Positions 30,739 through 48,738 of a stretch of 64,000 nucleotides of DNA are shown here, piece by piece (positions within the stretch are counted from its first letter, which is position 1; every line of letters starts with the position of its first letter). The position numbers were made by a program, and so were the translations under genes. Source of the DNA: Pseudoduganella violaceinigra DSM 15887 (GTDB taxonomy: Bacteria > Pseudomonadota > Gammaproteobacteria > Burkholderiales > Burkholderiaceae_D); NCBI RefSeq assembly GCF_000425385.1, contig NZ_AUDI01000012.1, forward strand, positions 62,001-126,000, written 5' to 3'. The notes beneath the pieces were generated by a model that worked only from the letters and a program-made list of their open reading frames with translations, was not told the origin of the DNA and made no database searches.

Positions 30739-32535
30739 TCAAGCTGCACTTGCGATATTGCGGTATTGGCTGAGCTGATGCTGCATCAGGTGGTGGTATA
30801 AGCCTTCGTGGTCACGCAGCAGTTCTTCATGCCGGCCTTGCTGCACAATGCGGCCTTCCTGCATCACCAGGATGCGGTCGGCTTTCACCACGGTCGAATA
30901 GCGGTGGGCGATGATGATGGTGGTGCGGCCGTCCATCAGCCGCTCCAGCGCGGCCTGCACCTGCATTTCGCTGGCGGCGTCCAGCGCGCTGGTGGCTTCA
31001 TCCAGGATCAGGATGGCCGGATTGCGCAACAAGGCCCGGGCGATGGCGATGCGCTGCTTCTGGCCGCCCGATAGCTGCACGCCGCGTTCCCCGACCACGG
31101 TTTCGTAGCCTTGCGGGAAGGCCGCGATAAAGCCGTGCGCATGCGCCAGGTGGGCTGCCGCCGTCACTTCATCGCGCGTCGCCGCCCGCCCAGGCAGAGC
31201 GAACGCGATATTCTCGTGGATGGTGCCTGAGAACAGTGCGGGTTCCTGCTCCACGATGGCGATGCCGGCACGCGCCTCGTGGGGGGCGAGTTGGCGTCCA
31301 TCGAACAGCAGGCGTCCCTCCTGCGGTTCATAAAAGCCGAGCAGCAGGTTGGCGATCGTTGACTTCCCCGCCCCCGATGCGCCGACCAGCGCTATCGTCT
31401 TGCCGGCGTCGACGCTGAAGCTGGCGTTATCGAGCGCCAGTTGCTGCGGGCGCTCGGGGTAGCGAAAGCTGACGCGGTCAAACGTGATCTGGCCGTCCGG
31501 CGCGGCTGCTGCCGGTTCAGGTTCCGGCTGCGGTGCGCTGTCCATGATCTCGAACAGGCGTTCGGTGGCGCCCAGCGTACGCACCCAGTCGGCCCAGAAG
31601 TCGTTGATCATGCTTGCCGATTCCGTCGCCATGGCGGCGTACACCACAAAGGCGGTCAGCTCGCCGATGCTGAGCGCGCCCTGGCCGATCAGGCGCGCGC
31701 CGTACCAGAGCGCCAACAGCAGCGCAAAATAGGTCAGGAAGGAGGATGCGCCGCGATACAGTCCGAACAGGCGGGTGCTGTTCACTGCCGTTCGCAGCGC
31801 CTGGCCGGTGGCCTCCTCATAACGCGCAACGGCGCCCAGGTACTGGCCGAAGGCACGCACCAGGCGGATGTTCGCAAAATGTTCATGGGCTACTTTGCCG
31901 CATGCGGCCTGGGTGCGCTGGATGTCGCGTGCGCGGCCGGCGAGCCGGGTTCCCGCCCAGTTCCCCAGCAGAATGCTGAGCGGCGCATAGCCAAGCAGCA
32001 CCAGGCAAAGCGGCGGCGATATCGCCAGCAGCATGATGATCGCCCCCGCCACAATGCACAGGCAGCGCAGCGTAATCGCCAGGCCCATGCTCAGGGTGTC
32101 GTGCAACTGCTCGACGTCGGCGGCGAGGCGGCTGGTAAGTTCCCCCACGTGATGCTTGTCGTAGAAGGCGATGGGCTGGCGCAGCAGGGCGGCGTACACC
32201 AGGCGCCGGATGCGCGTGACGATCATGTAGCCGGTCGATTCGAACAGGTAGTAGCGCAGGGTGGTGGCGATGGCCTGCAACACCAGGATGCCCAGCACCG
32301 CCAGGAAAAAGCCGGCGTACCATTCCGATGCGTGGCGTTTGCCGATATTGTCGATGAAGTATGCGAGCGCCTTTGGATAGGCCAGTTGCACTGCCACTGC
32401 CAGCGCCATGAACAGCACGCCGGCTGTCATGCGCCACGCGAAGGGACGCATCATGTGCAAGCGTTGCAGGTGCGGATTCAGGCCGCCTCCCGTTGTGCTC
32501 CAATTTCCTGCATCTGCTGCTGGAAGGTTTGCCAA
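30739..32535 (-). CDS. ABC-type exporter (fused permease/ATPase) of the RiPP-like operon
   Basis: A 598-residue half-transporter: six-helix type I exporter domain (to about residue 320), then an ATPase with Walker A GASGAGKST, signature LSGGQKQR and Walker B ILILDEATSALD. There is no N-terminal C39 peptidase domain, so leader removal must be done by another protein. The start is uncertain: TTG 32535 overlaps the thioredoxin gene by 58 bases; an internal ATG at 32454 is possible. It is the last gene of the operon and probably exports the processed peptide. Confidence 0.88.
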   Translation of the reverse strand: MANLPAADAGNWSTTGGGLNPHLQRLHMMRPFAWRMTAGVLFMALAVAVQLAYPKALAYFIDNIGKRHASEWYAGFFLAVLGILVLQAIATTLRYYLFESTGYMIVTRIRRLVYAALLRQPIAFYDKHHVGELTSRLAADVEQLHDTLSMGLAITLRCLCIVAGAIIMLLAISPPLCLVLLGYAPLSILLGNWAGTRLAGRARDIQRTQAACGKVAHEHFANIRLVRAFGQYLGAVARYEEATGQALRTAVNSTRLFGLYRGASSFLTYFALLLALWYGARLIGQGALSIGELTAFVVYAAMATESASMINDFWADWVRTLGATERLFEIMDSAPQPEPEPAAAAPDGQITFDRVSFRYPERPQQLALDNASFSVDAGKTIALVGASGAGKSTIANLLLGFYEPQEGRLLFDGRQLAPHEARAGIAIVEQEPALFSGTIHENIAFALPGRAATRDEVTAAAHLAHAHGFIAAFPQGYETVVGERGVQLSGGQKQRIAIARALLRNPAILILDEATSALDAASEMQVQAALERLMDGRTTIIIAHRYSTVVKADRILVMQEGRIVQQGRHEELLRDHEGLYHHLMQHQLSQYRNIASAA

Positions 32536-33041
32536 TTCTCATCGCCGACCATGCCGCCGGCTTGCAGCTTGCCGTCGTTGTCGACGAACAGGTAGAAAGG
32601 CGAGCCCATGGTCGGGTTCAGCATTTTGTAGTCGCGCATGCCCACCCGCAGCGCATGCTGGGCCAGCGGGCTGCCGCGCAGGAAGCGCCGCAGGCGCCAT
32701 GCCGGTTCGCGGCTGACCAGCCACAGTTCCAGGCCTGCATGCTCGAGCAGCGGAAGGTAGCCGGCGACCTCCGGCAGCTTCTGGCGGCACTTGGGGCAGG
32801 TGCTGGAAAGGAATAGCAGTACGGCCGGCATCTCGAGACTGGAAAGCTCCTTGTGTGCGCGCCCTTGCAGCGGGCGCGCCGAAATGGCCGGGATGACTTC
32901 GTCCAATGGGGGCGTTGGCTGCAGCGTGCGGGCGGCAGCAAAGTTGCGCGCGGCATCGACCGCCGCCAGCGACAGCCTGAGCGAGAGCGCGACGCCAAAC
33001 GCCAGCAGGCCAAGCACCAGGTAAAGGGTGCTGGTATCCAT
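32478..33041 (-). CDS. MauD/TlpA-like membrane-anchored thioredoxin
   Basis: A 187-residue protein with one N-terminal helix (LYLVLGLLAFGVALSL) and a periplasmic thioredoxin-like domain with CPKC at residues 82-85 (FLSSTCPKCRQKLPEV) and a cis-Pro-type MGSPFYLFVDNDG. It resembles MauD, which helps form disulfides in methylamine dehydrogenase; no mau structural genes are here. The start shares one base with the stop of the MauE-like gene. In this operon it is likely to oxidise or isomerise cysteines of the small peptide encoded first. That target is inferred. Confidence 0.85.
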   Translation of the reverse strand: MDTSTLYLVLGLLAFGVALSLRLSLAAVDAARNFAAARTLQPTPPLDEVIPAISARPLQGRAHKELSSLEMPAVLLFLSSTCPKCRQKLPEVAGYLPLLEHAGLELWLVSREPAWRLRRFLRGSPLAQHALRVGMRDYKMLNPTMGSPFYLFVDNDGKLQAGGMVGDENWQTFQQQMQEIGAQREAA

Positions 33042-33574
33042 CACACCGCTCCTTCCCTGGCATACAACAGCAGCATCATGATGTCGTGGGCATTGGCCAG
33101 CACCACGGCCAGCAGCGTCGCCACCCCCGTTGCGCACACGGTGGCTTGCCAGCTGCCGCCGTTCGCGCCGCTTGCCAGGAGGCTGAACGCGATGCCGGCG
33201 ATGATGGCCAGGTTGCGCGCCAGGTCGAAGCCGGAAACGGAGCGGTCGGCGTCGCCGAAGCAGCTGCATTTGACGATGTCCTCTGTCGCATACTTCCACG
33301 CCACGACAGCGGTGAAGAGTGCGAACAGCAGCAGCGCCCCCACCAGTGCCATCCGGCTGGCGGCGCCGCCCGGCAGCAGCCCGATGGCCAGTATCAGCTC
33401 GGCGCCAGCAATGCCCGGCGCCAGCAGGGCCGCCAGCGCGGGGCTGGCGCCGAAACTGGTTGCCAGGTTGTCGCGGAAGCGGTCAAGCGCGCGCCACTTG
33501 CCCCAGGCTGCGGTGCACAGGAGCAGGGCTGCCATCAGCCGCAGCGTGTCGGCGAAGAATTCGGCGGCGCTCAT
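33041..33574 (-). CDS. MauE/DoxX-like membrane protein
   Basis: A 177-residue protein with four to five helices and a C-S-C pair (C103, C105 in VKCSCFGDAD). It resembles MauE, the membrane partner of MauD, thought to pass redox equivalents across the membrane. It overlaps the protease stop as ATGA and the MauD start by one base, so the three genes are translationally linked. ATG 33574 is chosen for this coupling; a longer in-frame start would run into the protease gene. Confidence 0.82.
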   Translation of the reverse strand: MSAAEFFADTLRLMAALLLCTAAWGKWRALDRFRDNLATSFGASPALAALLAPGIAGAELILAIGLLPGGAASRMALVGALLLFALFTAVVAWKYATEDIVKCSCFGDADRSVSGFDLARNLAIIAGIAFSLLASGANGGSWQATVCATGVATLLAVVLANAHDIMMLLLYAREGAV

Positions 33575-34455
33575 GGCGCCAGCCTTGCTTCGCGCCAGCG
33601 CGGATGCAGTCCGCCTGGCCGGCGCCGCCGCATGCTCACGCAATCGCGGCTTGCCAGCAGCATATCGTCCCATTCATCTTCTTCGGAATCGGCGATGCCG
33701 CGCCCGACGCTCGCCTGCAGCAGGCGGGAAATCTGCCAGGCCAGCGCTTCTGCCTGCGGCTGGCGTACCACGTTCAGGCCAAGCTCGCCCAGTTCGCGGC
33801 CGGTGATGGCGTAGTTGTGCGAGTGGTAGTCCTGCATCAGGCGCAGCACGATGGCGCGCCGGCGCGCGGGATCCAGCTGCGGCAGCTGGTGGCGCAGCAG
33901 TTCCTCGCCGATCTGCTCGACTTCAAGCGTGCTGCGGTAGAAGGCGGCCAGGGTTGGCGGGAAGATGTTCTGGCACATCAGGCCCAGCGCCTGTTCGCGC
34001 GCCGCGTCCGGGTCGGCGCCGAACCAGCTGGCGCACATCTTGCCGAACAGGCGGATGTCCTGCGCGGAGAGCGTGCCTGTGCCGGCACCGGCATCGCCGT
34101 GCAGGTGCGGGTCGATGGGGGAGAAGATGGCCAGGTCGCCGGCGACGATTTCATCGGCCGCCATGGCCAGCAGCGTGGCCGACGACTCGCAATAGTGGGG
34201 AACGATCATTCCGAGGTGGCGCGTGAATTCGCGCAGCAGCAGGGCGATGCGGCGCGCGCCGTTGACGATGCCGCCGCGGCTGTGCAGCAGAACGTCGAGC
34301 CGTTCCGTTTTGCCGATGCCGCACAGCTGTTCATACAGCGCGGGCAGCATTTCGATGTCCAGCGTGCTGGCGGCCAGCACCAGTACCCGGCTGCCGCGCA
34401 GCTCTTCCAGTTGGCGCAGCGTGTCTAGCGCTGCAAAGTCGACTGCTGGCGGCAT
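33571..34455 (-). CDS. SDH-family ClpP/SppA-fold serine protease
   Basis: A 294-residue cytoplasmic protein of the SDH protease group (ClpP/crotonase fold): VLLHSRGGIVNGARRI (SRGG at 59-62), the nucleophile region YCESSATLLAMAADEIV with Ser92 the likely catalytic residue, and FSPIDPHL, as in SppA-like proteins. There is no signal peptide. AAGGAG lies five bases before ATG 34455, inside the end of the ATP-grasp gene (31-base overlap). As the exporter lacks a peptidase domain, this is the best candidate for leader cleavage. That role is inferred. Confidence 0.82.
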   Translation of the reverse strand: MPPAVDFAALDTLRQLEELRGSRVLVLAASTLDIEMLPALYEQLCGIGKTERLDVLLHSRGGIVNGARRIALLLREFTRHLGMIVPHYCESSATLLAMAADEIVAGDLAIFSPIDPHLHGDAGAGTGTLSAQDIRLFGKMCASWFGADPDAAREQALGLMCQNIFPPTLAAFYRSTLEVEQIGEELLRHQLPQLDPARRRAIVLRLMQDYHSHNYAITGRELGELGLNVVRQPQAEALAWQISRLLQASVGRGIADSEEDEWDDMLLASRDCVSMRRRRPGGLHPRWREARLAP

Positions 34456-35453
34456 GCACACTCCTTGCACAGTAGGTCGGCCACCGCTTCGAGCAGGCGG
34501 TATTCGGGCACCAGCTGTTCGATGAAGAGAAATTGGCCGCAGGAGTTATTTTCGAGGAAGACGTAGTCGCCCTCCGGTGTGACGATCAGGTCCAGCGCGC
34601 TGAAAGCCAGGCCGTAGCTACGCACGAAAGAGCGGCAACGCTGCTCGATTTCCGGCGGCAGCTGCACGGCGCTGTAGCGCACTTCGGCCGACATGTCGCG
34701 GCAGTCGACCCGCGTGCGCTCGTCATCCTGCGAATCGATGCGCGCGGCGAAGACGCGCTCCCCGATGACGGTGACGCGCAGTTCGTATTGCTTGGGTATG
34801 TATTCCTGGAAGTGGCATGCCAGCTCGCCGACCGCGTCCAGGCAATCGAGCATCTCCTGCGTCACCAGGGTTGTTGCGAGGCCGTTGACGATACGTTCGT
34901 CCTCATCCACCCGGTCGGCGCCCAGAAGGGGCGAAGACAGCGATTTGAAGATCCCTTCGCCGGGCAGTGCGGACAGGAAGGCGCGCGCCTCGCCGGGATC
35001 GTTGGTGACGATGGACGCCGGCACGCGAAAGCCCTGGCACATGGCGCGCTGCAGCTGTTCGCCTTTCCAGTTCGCGCCGCGCAGGGCGGTCGGATGGCTC
35101 ATCCAGAAGCAGTCGATGGTGTAGAGCAGGCCGAATAGCGCCTGCTCGCTTTCCTGCTGCGCATAGGCCAGCTCCTGCGGCGCCAGGTCGGTACTGGGGA
35201 AGGCGAATTCGCCCGATTTCCGGTTCCAGACAGCGCCAATATCGTGCAGGCCCACCTGGGCGCCGCTGGGCAGGTGGCGCAGCCGCCCATGCAAGGCGCC
35301 ATGCATGAAGCGCTGGCTAAGCTGATAGTCGCGCGGGAAGGTATCGAGGTCGATGCGGAAGCACTGCATGCCGCGCATGGCGAGCAGCGGCGCCACCAGG
35401 TCGGCGTGCAGGTCGCCGGAGTTGCTGATGATCAGGACCGTGTTTTTGCTCAT
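34425..35453 (-). CDS. MvdD-type ATP-grasp ribosomal peptide maturase
   Basis: A 342-residue ATP-grasp ligase of the graspetide (microviridin MvdD/MvdC) group. Diagnostic stretches are VLIISNSGDLHADLV and FRIDLDTFP (N-domain), AVWNRKSGEF, IVTNDPGEARAFL, FQEYIPKQYELRVTVIGERV, and the ATP/metal loop LIVTPEGDYVFLENNSCGQF. MvdD-type proteins usually read NPNGQW in this loop; here it is NSCGQF. Such enzymes join Ser/Thr or Lys side chains to Asp/Glu side chains in a precursor peptide. MSKNTVLI is taken as the start by analogy, although the ribosome binding site is weak. It follows the 58-residue peptide gene. Confidence 0.9.
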   Translation of the reverse strand: MSKNTVLIISNSGDLHADLVAPLLAMRGMQCFRIDLDTFPRDYQLSQRFMHGALHGRLRHLPSGAQVGLHDIGAVWNRKSGEFAFPSTDLAPQELAYAQQESEQALFGLLYTIDCFWMSHPTALRGANWKGEQLQRAMCQGFRVPASIVTNDPGEARAFLSALPGEGIFKSLSSPLLGADRVDEDERIVNGLATTLVTQEMLDCLDAVGELACHFQEYIPKQYELRVTVIGERVFAARIDSQDDERTRVDCRDMSAEVRYSAVQLPPEIEQRCRSFVRSYGLAFSALDLIVTPEGDYVFLENNSCGQFLFIEQLVPEYRLLEAVADLLCKECACRQQSTLQR

Positions 35454-35474: not shown

Positions 35475-35512
35475 TGAAAAGCCCCGCTCCATCGGACAGA
35501 GGCTTCCCGGTA
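35475..35512 (-). terminator. weak hairpin between peptide and ATP-grasp genes (attenuator-like)
   Basis: On the minus strand AAGCC pairs with GGCTT around an inner TCC/GGA stem, followed by TTCATTTT. Such leaky intercistronic terminators are common after RiPP precursor genes and would give more precursor than enzyme. Confidence 0.4.
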
Positions 35513-35521
35513 TGCGGCGGT

Positions 35522-35698
35522 TCAGCAGTACACGCCGTTGTCGCCGAAGGAACGGTAGTAGCGTTCCGACGGGAAGGAGCAACCTGCGCTTGCTACGCCT
35601 TCGCGGGCTTGCCACTTGGCGGCTGGTTTCTTGTCGGCTTCGGCTTTCTTATCTGCGACTTTGAAAGCGAACAGCTTTTTCTCGGTTTGCTTTTTCAT
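35522..35698 (-). CDS. 58-residue putative RiPP precursor peptide
   Basis: A small gene read directly from the minus strand. It starts ATG 35698 with AGAAAAGAG upstream and ends TGA 35524-35522. The N-terminal 39 residues are Lys/Ala-rich and look like a leader (MKKQTEKKLFAFKVADKK...). The tail, CSFPSERYYRSFGDNGVYC (residues 40-58), begins and ends with the only two cysteines. The tail offers Ser41, Ser44 and Ser50 as nucleophiles and Glu45 and Asp53 as acids for an ATP-grasp ligase. It is the first gene of the operon, has its own promoter, and is followed by a weak hairpin. I know no characterised homologue. Confidence 0.7.
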   Translation of the reverse strand: MKKQTEKKLFAFKVADKKAEADKKPAAKWQAREGVASAGCSFPSERYYRSFGDNGVYC

Positions 35699-35768
35699 TT
35701 TCGACTCTTTTCTGAAAGTTGATCATGATTGCAGTGTCTCCGCCGCCGCCGATGGTGGCGGCAGATGA

Positions 35769-35797
35769 ATTTAGCGCCAATGTTTAAAAAAGGTCAA
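35769..35797 (-). promoter_or_regulatory. sigma-70 promoter of the peptide operon
   Basis: On the minus strand TTGACC (35797-35792), 17-base spacer, CTAAAT (35774-35769). Transcription would start near 35762, leaving a 5' leader of about 64 bases that contains a GC-rich hairpin (around 35742-35765). Confidence 0.65.
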
Positions 35798-35843: not shown

Positions 35844-35876
35844 GTTAAGATATATCGCATTAAGATATATCTTAAC
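35844..35876. promoter_or_regulatory. PadR-type operator, 16-bp palindrome plus extra half copy
   Basis: TTAAGATATATCTTAA (35860-35875) is a perfect palindrome. The first 12 bases are repeated 15 bp upstream (35845-35856), so GTTAAGATATAT and ATATATCTTAAC also form outer arms (35844-35855 / 35865-35876). It lies 17 bp before the PadR start and is probably its autoregulatory site. Confidence 0.75.
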
Positions 35877-35892: not shown

Positions 35893-36420
35893 ATGTTCCA
35901 TTTTTTCCGGGGCCACCATCGCCTGCACCATGAACACCACCATCACCACCGCGGCGGCGGCGGGCGCGGACCGAAGATGTTCGATTCCGGCGCCATGCGC
36001 TACGTGGTCCTGCAGCTGATCGCCGACAAGCCGCGCCACGGCTATGAATTAATCAAGGAGCTGGAAGCGCTGACCGGCGGCAGCTACACGCCCAGCCCTG
36101 GCGCCATCTACCCGCTGCTGTCGATGATGGCCGATATGGGCCACGTCGACATCGTCAAGGACGGCAACAAGAAGCTGTATTCGATCCTGCCGGAAGGGCA
36201 GCAGTTCCTCGACGAAAACCGTGCCATGGTCGATGCCGTGATGGCGCGCCTGTCCGGCAGCGCCGGCCGCGAGGACGGCGGCGATCTGCGCGCCCTGATG
36301 CATGCACTGAAAGACGCCGTCATCTCGCGCGGCAGGGGACCGGGAAGCACCCGCGAGCACGTCGACGCGATTCGCGCTATCCTCAAGCGCGCAATCACTG
36401 AAATCACCCAACTTAACTGA
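35893..36420 (+). CDS. PadR-family regulator with His-rich N-terminus (YqjI-like)
   Basis: A 175-residue regulator. Residues 1-25 hold ten histidines (HHRLHHEHHHHHRGGG), followed by the PadR winged helix (VLQLIADKPRHGYELIKELE, SPGAIYPLLSMM) and a C-terminal helix ending ITEITQLN. Layout and ending resemble E. coli YqjI, an iron- and nickel-responsive repressor. AAGGAGG precedes the ATG and a perfect palindrome lies just upstream. It shares one base with the MFS gene that follows. Metal sensing through the histidines is inferred. Confidence 0.88.
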   Translation: MFHFFRGHHRLHHEHHHHHRGGGGRGPKMFDSGAMRYVVLQLIADKPRHGYELIKELEALTGGSYTPSPGAIYPLLSMMADMGHVDIVKDGNKKLYSILPEGQQFLDENRAMVDAVMARLSGSAGREDGGDLRALMHALKDAVISRGRGPGSTREHVDAIRAILKRAITEITQLN

Positions 36421-37655
36421 TGACCCAGACACTTACACCGCAACGCGAACGCACCGTCCTTTGGCTGCTTGCGTTCATCCAATTCACCGTCATCATGGAC
36501 TTCATGGTCATGATGCCGCTGGCCCCGCAGCTGATGCGGGCTTTCACGATCAGCGCCGCCCAGGTTTCGGGCGCGGTGTCGGCTTACGCCTGGTGCGCCG
36601 GCCTGTCCGGCCTGCTGGCGGCGACATATGCCGACCGCTTCGACCGCAAGAAGCTGCAGCTGACGGTTTTCATGCTGTTCAACCTGTCCAACCTGGCGTG
36701 TGCGCTGGCGCCTAACTTCCACGTGCTGGTGCTGTCGCGCGCTTTTGCCGGCATGACCGGCGGCGTGCTTGGTGCTATCAGCATGTCCATCATCGCCGAC
36801 CTGATTCCGCAGGAGCGCCGCGGCGCCGCCACCGGCATCGTCATGACTTCCTTCAGCATGGCTGCCATTGCGGGCGTGCCGGCGGGCGTCATGCTCGGGG
36901 CGCACTTCGGCTGGCAGTCGCCGTTCTACCTGCTGGTGGTGCTGTCGATGCTGGTGTGGCTGGTGGCCGCGCGTTCGCTGCCTTCGATGACGGCGCACCT
37001 GGCCAATACGCCGGTGCCGCTGGCGCGCGTGCTGCCGGAGCTGCTTGGCCTGTTCAAGGTGGCGGCGCACTTGCGCGGTTTCCTGCTGTGCTTTCTGGTG
37101 ACGGTCAGCGGCATGATGGTGATTCCCTTCATCTCGCCCATGCTGGTGGGGAACCAGGGTATCGCGCCGGCGCAGATCAGCTACGTCTACCTGTGCGGCG
37201 GCATTGCGACCCTGTTCAGCTCACGCCTGATCGGCGCCTGGTCGGACCGCGCCGGCAAGCAGCGCGTATTCCGCTGGATGGCGCTGTTCTCCATTGCGCC
37301 AACCCTGTTCATGACCCATATGCCGCAGATCCCGCTGCTGCTGGTGATGCTGTTCTTCCCCTTCTTCATGGTGGCGATGTCGGGCCGCTTCGTGCCGATG
37401 CAGGCGCTGCTGACAACGATTCCCGAGCCGCAACGCCGCGGCGCCTTCCTCAGCGCGAATGCGGCGGTACAGCAGGTGGGAACGGGGATTGGCGCGTTTG
37501 CCGGCGGCTTGCTGGTGCATACCGATGCCGCGGGCCACATCCTCGGCTACGACACGATCGGTCTTGTCGCCACTGCGCTGATGCTGTTCTCTGTCTGGTG
37601 GGTTGCCAGGGTGCAGGGCGCACCCGCGCCGCTTACTGCGCGTTCCCCTGCTTGA
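36420..37655 (+). CDS. MFS efflux transporter (DHA1-like)
   Basis: A 411-residue protein with 12 helices. FIQFTVIMDFMVMMPLAPQLM and ATYADRFDRKKLQL (motif A) and GMTGGVLGAISMSIIADLIPQERRGAATG (motif B/C region) are typical of the AraJ/YdhP-type drug or sugar efflux branch. Its ATG overlaps the PadR stop (TGATG), so it is the obvious target of that regulator. The substrate is unknown. Its 3' end overlaps the convergent gene by 23 bases. Confidence 0.87.
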   Translation: MTQTLTPQRERTVLWLLAFIQFTVIMDFMVMMPLAPQLMRAFTISAAQVSGAVSAYAWCAGLSGLLAATYADRFDRKKLQLTVFMLFNLSNLACALAPNFHVLVLSRAFAGMTGGVLGAISMSIIADLIPQERRGAATGIVMTSFSMAAIAGVPAGVMLGAHFGWQSPFYLLVVLSMLVWLVAARSLPSMTAHLANTPVPLARVLPELLGLFKVAAHLRGFLLCFLVTVSGMMVIPFISPMLVGNQGIAPAQISYVYLCGGIATLFSSRLIGAWSDRAGKQRVFRWMALFSIAPTLFMTHMPQIPLLLVMLFFPFFMVAMSGRFVPMQALLTTIPEPQRRGAFLSANAAVQQVGTGIGAFAGGLLVHTDAAGHILGYDTIGLVATALMLFSVWWVARVQGAPAPLTARSPA

Positions 37656-39071: not shown

Positions 39072-39677
39072 TTATTTCTGGCGGCGGCGCAGGGTGAAAC
39101 CCAGCATGCCGAGGCCGAGCAGGATCGACGCCAGCGTGCCCGGTTCCGGCACTTTGACGGACATCGATACGTTATCCAGCGAGCCGCCGTAGCCGTCGCT
39201 GATGCCGCTGGCCTTGAACTGCAGCGTGGACAGGTTACCGATGGCGAACATCGACAGGTCGATCTTCTGCCATTGCGTCAGGGAGGTGAAGTTATCCTCG
39301 GCCACATGCTTCAGCAGGTTGCCGTTCCAGAACACGTCGATGCCGTTGGTGCTTGCCGCGGTATGCTCGCGCGGGGCGTAGAAGAACGACAGGTTGTACT
39401 GGGCGCCGCTGATCGTATTGAAGGACTGGCTGATCCAGCTGTTGGCGGTCGAATCCAGTTCCAGGTAATTGTTGCCGTCCTTGGCCGCGCCGGCAATGTT
39501 GTTGCGCACTTCCGCGCCGTTCGGACCGACGGTCCAGCCGTCCAGCGCGGACATGATGGTCCACGTGTTGGCGTTCACGCCATTCTTTTCAAAACTGCCA
39601 TTTTTGATGAGTTCAACAGGACCTGCGGTTGCGGCACCGGCGGCGAGAAGGAGTACTGCGGCGAGGAATTTCTTCAT
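39072..39677 (-). CDS. PEP-CTERM protein with DUF642-like domain
   Basis: A 201-residue exported protein: signal peptide ending ATA-G, an N-terminal LIKNGSFEKNG stretch typical of DUF642-like carbohydrate-binding sandwiches, and the C-terminal sorting signal VPEPGTLASILLGLGMLGF followed by RRRQK. PEP-CTERM proteins are cut by an exosortase and released or anchored at the cell surface, often with exopolysaccharide. No exosortase gene lies in the window. Confidence 0.88.
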   Translation of the reverse strand: MKKFLAAVLLLAAGAATAGPVELIKNGSFEKNGVNANTWTIMSALDGWTVGPNGAEVRNNIAGAAKDGNNYLELDSTANSWISQSFNTISGAQYNLSFFYAPREHTAASTNGIDVFWNGNLLKHVAEDNFTSLTQWQKIDLSMFAIGNLSTLQFKASGISDGYGGSLDNVSMSVKVPEPGTLASILLGLGMLGFTLRRRQK

Positions 39678-39756
39678 GTTGTCCCGTTGAAATGTGGCTT
39701 GCGCAAAAGATATCAAGATTGTAGCACGACAATTGCGGAAAAAATCAGCACGCTGA

Positions 39757-39790
39757 AAAAAGCCTGCAACCCAAGGCGGCGTGCAGGCTG
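39757..39790 (-). terminator. intrinsic terminator after the DUF6882-like gene
   Basis: AGCCTGCA (39761-39768) pairs with TGCAGGCT (39782-39789); the minus strand continues with a T run. Confidence 0.75.
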
Positions 39791-39807
39791 ATGATGCTTC
39801 GTGGAAA

Positions 39808-40542
39808 CTAATTGCGCAATTGTGCGGACAGCACGACCATGAAGATGAATCCATTATCCGTCGGTACGCGGTAGGCGCCCATGGCGCCGAGCACGTCGAG
39901 GGCGATGGCGGTCATGTGCCAGCCGTCCTGCTGCTGCGCTTTCCATTTGGGGACGGTGAGCAATGGGTAGTCGTGCTCTTCGCCGAAGTCGCGTACGGCA
40001 AGGATGCGCGAACGGACCGGCTGCAGCAGGCTGAAATTCGCCCATGACCACATCCAGGTGTCGCTGGCGGTGGACAGGGTGCCGACGAATTCGACGTCCG
40101 CCACCAGGTCAGGCTGCGCGCCGCCGGAAAACACCAGCTGCGCGTTTTCCTGGTAATAGTCCCAGCGCGAATAGTCGTTCAGTTTCAGGCGCCCGGTCAT
40201 GGCTTGCTGCTTATCCCGCAGGACCTTGCATTGGGTGTCCAGGTACTGGACCCACGCTTGCGCCGTGGTGTCGTCCATGCTGGTGACGCTTTGCGCAATG
40301 CCCTCCTCGTAGCAATGGCAGCACAGCAGGCCGATCTCGGCCTCGCCTTCATTCTTCTCGTTCCATTCGCCTTCGCGTTCGAACGCTGCATTGCATGCCG
40401 CGCACCAGGCATCGCGCCAGGGCGCATCCTCTTCCGGGTAGCCGCAATACCAAGGCTGGGCCGGGTGCTCGATCAGGTGTTTGCAAACATGGGCGAATTC
40501 GCTGTCGCCATGGGTAGGGCAGGTGATGGTTTCGTTCGTCAT
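39808..40542 (-). CDS. hypothetical protein, zinc-ribbon-like N-part and DUF6882-like C-part
   Basis: A 244-residue soluble protein. The first 90 residues have cysteine pairs (TCPTHGD, VCKHL, DAWCAACNAAF, LLCCHCYEEG) that may bind zinc. The C-terminal half, with TWMWSWANFSLLQPV and FGEEHDYPLLTVPKWKAQQQDGWHMTAIALDVLGAMGAYRVP, resembles DUF6882. Function is unknown. Both flanks have terminators, so it is a single-gene unit. Confidence 0.72.
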   Translation of the reverse strand: MTNETITCPTHGDSEFAHVCKHLIEHPAQPWYCGYPEEDAPWRDAWCAACNAAFEREGEWNEKNEGEAEIGLLCCHCYEEGIAQSVTSMDDTTAQAWVQYLDTQCKVLRDKQQAMTGRLKLNDYSRWDYYQENAQLVFSGGAQPDLVADVEFVGTLSTASDTWMWSWANFSLLQPVRSRILAVRDFGEEHDYPLLTVPKWKAQQQDGWHMTAIALDVLGAMGAYRVPTDNGFIFMVVLSAQLRN

Positions 40543-46744: not shown

Positions 46745-47560
46745 TTAACGGCGGCGCATGCGCTGGCTGCCGACGACCAACAGGCCCAGGCCGAGCAGGG
46801 CCAGGCTGCCAGGTTCTGGCACGGTCTTGCTGTTGAAGTCCAGGATGCCCGACTCCGAATTGATCGCGACCACTTTGGCTCCCACGCAGTTCGCGACGTC
46901 GCAGGTAATACCCTGCGAGGTGTTATTGAAGGCCGAGAACGCGGCCTTGTAGAACGGGCGCGGGTCGGTGAAGAAGTCGTAGCCGTCAGGATTGACCGGG
47001 TCGTCGTACAGTTCAAAACCGAAGTTCAGGTTCTGGAAAGCGCCACCCAGCGGATCGAGGCCGCCTTTGCCGTCGGTCAGCAGGCCGGAGCTGGCCAGCT
47101 TGTACTGGATGCCGGTCAAGCCGATGCTCGGATCCAGCGCCACGGTGGACTGGGAATAGGTGTTGTCGTTGCCCGGGTCGGCCCACAATTCGAAGTTGAA
47201 GCTGGTCACGTTACAAGTCACGTTCGGCGCCAGGATGCCGCTGCAAGTGAATTGCTGGCTGAAGACCGCGTACAGGCCGTAATCGACATTGACGCGCGTA
47301 TTGCCACCGGACACCGGCGAGCTGTTCAGCCCGAAGCCGTTGAAGAAGGCGTAGCCGTTGGCGCGGTAGACGTTTGCCGGATCGGCAGCGTCATGGTGGA
47401 TGCGGTTGGACGAAAAGCCGTTGATGGCGTCGGCTTGGAAGACTTTGCCAGTACCGCTGATCACCGTGGGGTCCACGGAGAAAACCGGAGCGGCCGATGC
47501 CTGGGATGCGCCTAACAGACCCAGAGCACCTGCAATCAGCCCGCATAATTGTTTCTTCAT
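46745..47560 (-). CDS. PEP-CTERM protein, tandem paralogue A
   Basis: A 271-residue exported protein: signal peptide to ASA, a VFSVDPTVISGTGKVFQADA opening, two disulfide-type Cys pairs (CSGILAPNVTC and CDVANC), SFNFELWADPGNDNTYSQ, and the sorting tail VPEPGSLALLGLGLLVVG-RMRRR. It resembles the flocculation-associated PEP-CTERM family by eye. The gene upstream on the same strand is a close paralogue with the same layout. GGAGATCGAGC precedes the ATG. Confidence 0.85.
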   Translation of the reverse strand: MKKQLCGLIAGALGLLGASQASAAPVFSVDPTVISGTGKVFQADAINGFSSNRIHHDAADPANVYRANGYAFFNGFGLNSSPVSGGNTRVNVDYGLYAVFSQQFTCSGILAPNVTCNVTSFNFELWADPGNDNTYSQSTVALDPSIGLTGIQYKLASSGLLTDGKGGLDPLGGAFQNLNFGFELYDDPVNPDGYDFFTDPRPFYKAAFSAFNNTSQGITCDVANCVGAKVVAINSESGILDFNSKTVPEPGSLALLGLGLLVVGSQRMRRR

Positions 47561-47818: not shown

Positions 47819-48625
47819 TTAGCTGCGTCGAATGCGGCGGCTGCCCAATAACACCAGGCCGAGTCCCAGCAGGGCCAGGCTGCCCGGCTCCGGCACGGCG
47901 AAGTCCAGGACCCCGGTTTGCGAATTGATGGCGATCTTCTTGGCCTTGTCGCATTTCACGGTATCGCACAGGATGCCCTGCGACGTGTTGTTGAAGGCGG
48001 AGAATGCGGCGGAATAGAAGGGACGCGGGTCCTTGAAGAAGCCATAGCCGTTCGGCTTGGCCGGATCGTCGTGCAGTACCCAGCCGAAATTCAGGTTTTG
48101 GAACGAGCCGCCCAGTTCGTTCAGGCCGCCCCCGCTGTCGCGCAGGAGGCCGGCGCTGGCCAGCTTGTACTGGATGCCTTTCTTCGTCACGGACGGGTCC
48201 TGCGCCAGGCTCGATTGCGAATAGCTGTTGTCGTTGCCCGGGTCCGCCCACAACTCGAAGTTGAAACTCGTCACAGAGCACTTCACGCCCGGCGACACGA
48301 TGGCTTGGCAGGTAATGTTCTGGCTGAACACCGCGTACAGGCCGTAGTCGACGTTGAGCCGGGAATTGCCGCCGGATACCGTCGAGCCTTTCAGCGAGAA
48401 GCCATTAAAGAAGGCGTAGCCATTGGCATGGTAGACATTGGCCGGTTCGCCGGGATTCTGCACGATGCGCGTGGAAGAAAAGCCGTTGATGGCGTCGGCT
48501 TGAAAGAGCTTGCCAGTGCCGCTGATGACGGTGGGGTCGATCGTGAACACCGGTGCTGCATAGGCTTGGGTCGCCGCGGCCAGGGCAAGTGCCCCAGCAA
48601 GCGACCGGCAAAGCGTTTTGTTCAT
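47819..48625 (-). CDS. PEP-CTERM protein, tandem paralogue B
   Basis: A 268-residue paralogue of the gene at 46745: VFTIDPTVISGTGKLFQADA, CQAIVSPGVKC, SFNFELWADPGNDNSYSQ, CDTVKC and tail VPEPGSLALLGLGLVLLGSRRIRRS. ATG 48625 is chosen because GGAG lies six bases upstream and a typical signal peptide follows (ending AYA-A). It is a surface or extracellular protein handled by an exosortase. Confidence 0.87.
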   Translation of the reverse strand: MNKTLCRSLAGALALAAATQAYAAPVFTIDPTVISGTGKLFQADAINGFSSTRIVQNPGEPANVYHANGYAFFNGFSLKGSTVSGGNSRLNVDYGLYAVFSQNITCQAIVSPGVKCSVTSFNFELWADPGNDNSYSQSSLAQDPSVTKKGIQYKLASAGLLRDSGGGLNELGGSFQNLNFGWVLHDDPAKPNGYGFFKDPRPFYSAAFSAFNNTSQGILCDTVKCDKAKKIAINSQTGVLDFAVPEPGSLALLGLGLVLLGSRRIRRS

Positions 48626-48738
48626 GCATTTCTCCATTCAGGTTGCTAATTTGGACGTCATGGTTTTATGGACTTATCAGTTGCAGAGCTGACATAGCAA
48701 AGACCATGCCAAAAGAATAAGCATGAATGAATACAAGA

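Follow-up and report, generated by a model that had tools for sequence, protein, structure and literature searches.

The operon and its surroundings

The window, that is, the whole 64,000-nucleotide stretch of Pseudoduganella violaceinigra DSM 15887 DNA that was analysed, carries on its minus strand an operon of six genes placed head to tail, which encode a short precursor, an ATP-grasp enzyme, an SDH protease, MauE, a MauD-like protein and an ABC exporter, the genes overlapping from the ATP-grasp gene onward. The precursor gene (35522..35698), assigned to the graspetide type from its ORF, family matches, alignment and dN/dS, reads from an ATG at 35698 down to 35522 over 58 codons, MKKQTEKKLFAFKVADKKAEADKKPAAKWQAREGVASAGCSFPSERYYRSFGDNGVYC, the plus strand of the same interval giving a different reading; Cys40 and Cys58 are the only cysteines of its 58 residues. 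A consensus scan detected a candidate promoter-like site, TTGACC-18-TAAATT (35768..35797, minus strand), upstream of this gene. Between the precursor and the ATP-grasp genes lies a weak stem-loop with a T-rich tail (35482-35501), which could lower the expression of the enzymes relative to that of the precursor.

The second gene (34425..35453, minus strand) encodes an ATP-grasp ligase of the MvdD/SAV_5884 type, a predicted graspetide synthetase. Its best profile was TIGR04187 (E 6e-73), with a score of 245.7 bits that lies below the model cut-off of 350, followed by MvdD and MvdC, and the protein contains the MvdD pre-grasp domain PF21068. By sequence, the nearest solved structures were CdnC, MdnC, AMdnB, MdnB and PruB, with E-values of 3.6e-43 to CdnC and 3.4e-37 to MdnC (5ig9). 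A fold search with the predicted model (mean pLDDT 88) returned the same set of synthetases first, with TM-scores around 0.5 and large rmsd, so that it is the sequence E-values that carry the link to the known synthetases. E301 and N303 are invariant across 62 orthologues, as are many other positions, and the gene is absent from only two of the clusters examined.

The third gene (33571..34470, minus strand) encodes an SDH-type serine protease (PF01972, E 1e-16), a putative leader peptidase in which Cys94, Ser96 and His218 are each kept in 61 of 61 orthologues. Its predicted model has a ClpP-like fold, the fold search leading to ClpP and SppA; a sequence search against the PDB gave no match. 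It is followed by a MauE-like membrane redox protein (33041..33673, minus strand, with a likely start at 33574; PF07291, E 1e-19), with several candidate membrane segments, and by a MauD-like thioredoxin (32478..33041, minus strand; AhpC/TSA and MauD matches), whose single N-terminal hydrophobic segment is a candidate membrane anchor. The pair C136-x-C138 of MauE and the CPKC motif (C82-x-x-C85) of the MauD-like protein are conserved in 54 of 54 sequences each; the connection that the earlier note had drawn between the cysteine frame of the peptide and thioredoxin-type genes is thus upheld, both genes lying in the same operon with their redox cysteines kept. The last gene (30739..32535, minus strand) encodes an ABC exporter with membrane (PF00664) and ATPase (PF00005) domains. 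No C39 peptidase domain was detected in it by profile search, and therefore another protease would be needed to remove the leader. A reading of the product as a lanthipeptide or sactipeptide was dropped, as the operon has no dehydratase, cyclase or radical SAM gene.

Other features of the window were also recorded. A perfect 13-nt inverted repeat, GTTAAGATATATC/GATATATCTTAAC (35844-35876), is located just before a divergent pair of genes for a PadR regulator and an MFS transporter (35893-37655), and is probably the PadR operator; this pair was set aside as a part of the system, as only one (L034) of the first 40 clusters shares it. Further away, three proteins (39072-39854, 46745-47560 and 47819-48637) end in a VPEP...RR-type C-terminus similar to a PEP-CTERM sorting signal, the last two being side by side and looking like paralogues.

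The precursor family and its spread

Of 393 genomes of the same taxonomic family, 36 had a precursor match with E < 1e-7, and 46 had one at E 0.1 or better, the matches near 0.01-0.1 being treated as chance; tandem precursor copies numbered from one to ten. None of the 97 copies of the first precursor set, taken from 39 fetched loci plus the window, is interrupted by a stop codon, and the comparison between the window precursor and its nearest orthologue gave a dN of 0.26 and a dS of 0.90 (dN/dS 0.29), with dN reaching 0.34 in the core against 0.23 in the leader. On these three grounds the 58-codon ORF is a genuine gene, far beyond what chance would give. The earlier description of the ORF as an undescribed RiPP precursor agrees with these data and with its conservation across phyla beside the same enzymes: Pfam, NCBIfam and PHROGs contain no family model that matched it, and no such family was found in open papers, the supplementary tables of the graspetide surveys being outside the scope of this search. 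A weak match to NF010330 (E 0.04) was taken as chance, and a plasmid collection gave no match.

The relatives that bear the operon belong to Pseudoduganella, Rugamonas, Duganella, Massilia and Janthinobacterium. In an order-wide sample, where matches with E > 0.003 were treated as chance, a single genome (G691) gave the only real match outside the family, and among 369 genomes sampled class-wide the precursor appeared just in the genome of the window (6.1 Mb), so that beyond Oxalobacteraceae the precursor family is thinly spread. When about 85,000 species genomes were scanned with the alignment, 51 loci were found, distributed among Oxalobacteraceae, Idiomarina, Rheinheimera, Shewanella, Lysobacter, Luteimonas, Brevundimonas, Hellea, Pyxidicoccus and three Bacteroidota, in such a manner that the precursor family also covers Lysobacteraceae, Caulobacterales, Myxococcota and Bacteroidota. 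Most clusters have the whole gene series of the window operon in the same order, in taxa that range from Oxalobacteraceae to Flavobacteriaceae. In a tree of the ATP-grasp proteins the Bacteroidota members cluster together and some Rheinheimera and Luteimonas sequences fall among those of Oxalobacteraceae, a topology that suggests horizontal transfer, several of such branches being long or weakly supported.

One locus (L036, 10444-12662) holds ten tandem precursor genes with diverged cores, in which a tandem repeat program detected no array; for both reasons these duplications are not recent. In Shewanella sp. HN-41 (L127, 7974-8446) each of the two tandem precursors is broken into two frames, in both cases at one and the same lysine-rich position, and those of its close relatives (L105 and L108) are intact; an error of sequencing within a run of A is the likely cause.

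Invariant residues and the predicted product

Seven residues never change across all the taxa found, namely F10, F12, A15, G39, C40, D53 and C58, and residue 41 is Ser or Thr without exception. The first three belong to the leader motif F10-A-F-K-V-A15 (35654..35671, minus strand; FxF[KRQ][LV]A in the family), in agreement with the shared leader that the earlier note had anticipated. The leaders of the family lack the Pro that is part of the common Phhx(1,2)h motif. Given its invariance and the known role of PFFARFL in leader recognition by graspetide enzymes, as stated in the survey text (PMC8939145), we infer that FxFxLA is the counterpart of the latter, and presumably the element on which the ATP-grasp enzyme docks. 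Directly before the core, A38-G39 is invariant in the family; as a small-residue doublet is described in the same survey text as common at graspetide cleavage sites (PMC8939145), the leader is probably cut after this doublet (AG/C).

The core, Cys40-Ser41...Asp53-x-Gly55-x-Tyr57-Cys58 (35525..35581, minus strand), was compared in a set of 106 distinct intact cores. Cys40, Ser/Thr41 (61 Thr and 45 Ser), Asp53 and Cys58 are kept in every one of them, with Asp53 always five residues before the last cysteine; Gly55 is absent from one core, and the residue that precedes the last cysteine is Tyr, Trp or Phe in 96. The stretch between both cysteines varies in sequence and length, the span from first to last being 17-34 residues. 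Free variation of the cysteines or acidic residues, or stop codons in relatives, had been named beforehand as what would speak against the proposal, and neither Cys40, Cys58 nor Asp53 behaves in this way; the two cysteines frame the core throughout, as had been noted for the window peptide. A third cysteine is found in the loop of six cores of the family (loci L125, L128, L129 and L130), for instance in flavobacterial cores with KCNGYHPG or RCNGYHPG.

Acids number two or three, and Ser, Thr or Lys residues two to five, in most cores. Position 41 is the sole Ser/Thr/Lys in 13 of the 106 cores and Asp53 the sole Asp/Glu in three, so the only donor and acceptor common to all of them are Ser/Thr41 and Asp53. 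These counts are strong evidence that a single ATP-grasp bond of known kind, if shared by all members, could only be Ser/Thr41-Asp53. Of the crosslink sites suggested before from the window sequence, Asp53 stands, Glu45 does not (Glu in only 29 of 94 cores), and the serines at 44 and 50 have to be abandoned, neither position being conserved. The data thus point to one Ser/Thr41-Asp53 linkage rather than to several.

We consider it fairly probable from these patterns that the product is a graspetide with one Ser/Thr41-Asp53 ester placed within a Cys40-Cys58 disulfide as a stem-loop, with oxidation by MauE/MauD and leader removal by the SDH protease. The ATP-grasp enzyme, docked on the FxFxLA leader, would activate Asp53 as an acyl phosphate and couple it with the Ser/Thr41 hydroxyl, which would close a single macrolactone around the variable loop (11 residues in the window). 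The SDH protease, likely the leader peptidase, would then cut after Ala38-Gly39, the core would be exported by the ABC exporter, and MauE/MauD would oxidise Cys40 and Cys58 at the inner membrane, in such a way that the disulfide encloses the ester in a two-rung stem-loop. The ester, the disulfide, the site and enzyme of cleavage and the order of the steps are what we infer; for the disulfide we rely on the invariance of the cysteines and the presence of MauE/MauD, MauE having been linked to disulfide formation (PMC7794033). As for bioactivity, protease inhibition is the default guess, by analogy with the graspetide class.

In five clusters of Oxalobacteraceae one mau gene or both are missing, and two of the five lack the ATP-grasp gene as well. 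Those of Duganella sp. BJB480 (L041, 7010-9902) and Rugamonas sp. A1-17 (L066, 7502-10394) consist of precursor, SDH protease and ABC exporter only, and each of these genomes has a second, complete cluster; both mau genes are missing in R. aquatica (L043) and Duganella sp. BJB476 (L045), and the R. rivuli cluster (L049) gave no MauE match. Four of the five genomes have a second cluster, and in all five mau-deficient clusters the precursor shows the complete core pattern. This speaks for the protease and the exporter being, as far as gene content tells, the least dispensable partners of the precursor. The persistence of both cysteines weakens the tie to MauE/MauD, which, and perhaps the ester too, may not be strictly coupled to them; general Dsb enzymes or the second cluster could stand in for the missing pair.

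The protease itself could instead confer immunity or be what the product acts on, the leader being removed by another protease. Carter et al. 2026 suggest in their survey text (PMC13097080) that the serine proteinase found near graspetides of group 9 serves self-resistance, and the characterised graspetides are noted as protease inhibitors in that of PMC8939145. Its retention in both clusters reduced to precursor, protease and exporter is what would be expected of a processing enzyme, and the exporter has no peptidase domain, neither point being decisive; we regard this alternative as the less probable one, though worth keeping in mind. Doubtful, in turn, is that many members carry two or more esters, Ser/Thr41-Asp53 plus member-specific links through acids near 44-45 or through loop residues. 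The additional acids and donors of most cores, such as Glu45, Ser44 and Ser50 in the window, would allow it, and extra crosslinks are possible in some members, but these residues are unconserved and 13 cores have a single Ser/Thr/Lys. A thioester between Asp53 and Cys40 or Cys58, made by the ATP-grasp enzyme in place of the bond to Ser/Thr41, seems to us quite improbable: both cysteines are as invariant as position 41 and a thiol could accept the acyl phosphate, but the strict Ser/Thr at 41 in all 106 cores would be left unexplained, the donors described for graspetides are Ser, Thr or Lys (PMC9576775), and the redox genes of the operon fit a disulfide. That the ORF is spurious or no RiPP precursor, as its shortness and the lack of a Pfam or NCBIfam model might suggest, can be dismissed in view of its conservation across phyla beside the same enzymes, its dN/dS and the 97 uninterrupted copies of the first set.

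Whether the family with one ester within a disulfide makes up a distinct graspetide class, in which an ATP-grasp ester and a disulfide, with a dedicated SDH protease and MauE/MauD, replace the usual multi-ester cage, and which has diversified through tandem arrays and become distributed across Pseudomonadota, Myxococcota and Bacteroidota, is in our judgement an evenly balanced question. If true, this would add a natural scaffold whose enzyme-made ester lies within a disulfide and whose loops vary freely in sequence as well as length, together with more than 100 cores supplied by nature. For a graspetide type exported without a C39 peptidase it would also supply a candidate enzyme for leader removal, a step still open for most of the class, and it would make MauE/MauD a defined redox pair for the study of disulfide gain in exported RiPPs. 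With a single conserved donor and acceptor, the predicted connectivity is directly testable.

Comparison with known systems

An adjacent MvdD/MvdC-type ATP-grasp gene, a short precursor with a conserved leader motif and a variable core, and a conserved donor and acceptor are all present, and by such sequence tests the family is a graspetide one. The best profile of the ATP-grasp protein is that of the SAV_5884-type clusters (TIGR04187), with a score under the curated cut-off, and the precursor matched none of the NCBIfam models. In the survey text, just two precursor clusters of the 2022 graspetide survey allowed only one ester (PMC8939145), and group 9 of the Ramesh/Carter survey is described as having a nearby serine proteinase in over half of its members (PMC13097080). 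Group 9 may be the family studied here, a likeness drawn from the survey description and not from its sequences. In the open papers searched, no graspetide with a conserved cysteine frame and disulfide was found, nor any earlier report of the combination of ester and disulfide, with a listing under group 9 being possible.

Microviridins and chryseoviridin (MdnA/MdnC, CdnC) share with the family a homologous ATP-grasp and an aromatic leader motif. They differ from it in that the window family has a single ATP-grasp, no conserved Lys donor and a conserved cysteine frame, and its cluster includes the SDH protease and MauE/MauD, with an exporter devoid of C39 peptidase. No pair of MvdC and MvdD was found in the window genome, with only one such ATP-grasp, which speaks against a microviridin assignment, and the TxKYPSD motif is absent from the window core, as had been observed before, and from every other core of the family.

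The candidate RiPP families found by decRiPPter in Streptomyces also have mau homologues beside cysteine-bearing precursors, for which a role in disulfides was proposed (PMC7794033). Their precursors are cysteine-rich, with at least 8 cysteines, and an MvdD-type ATP-grasp is not placed beside them in the text of that work (PMC7794033).

The likeness to fuscimiditide and the graspimiditides (ThfA/ThfB) includes a graspetide ATP-grasp and a Thr located before the Asp in the chain. The window family differs in that it has no conserved Asp-Gly in the loop, and a PIMT-type methyltransferase is not among the six genes of the operon, which argues against membership of the graspimiditides. Fuscimiditide has nested stem-loop crosslinks that close a 10-residue loop (PMC12291112); the window family, with one conserved Ser/Thr-Asp pair only, would have a disulfide as the outer crosslink, and its predicted product, as deduced here from sequence, would resemble the fuscimiditide stem-loop with this disulfide replacing the outer ester.
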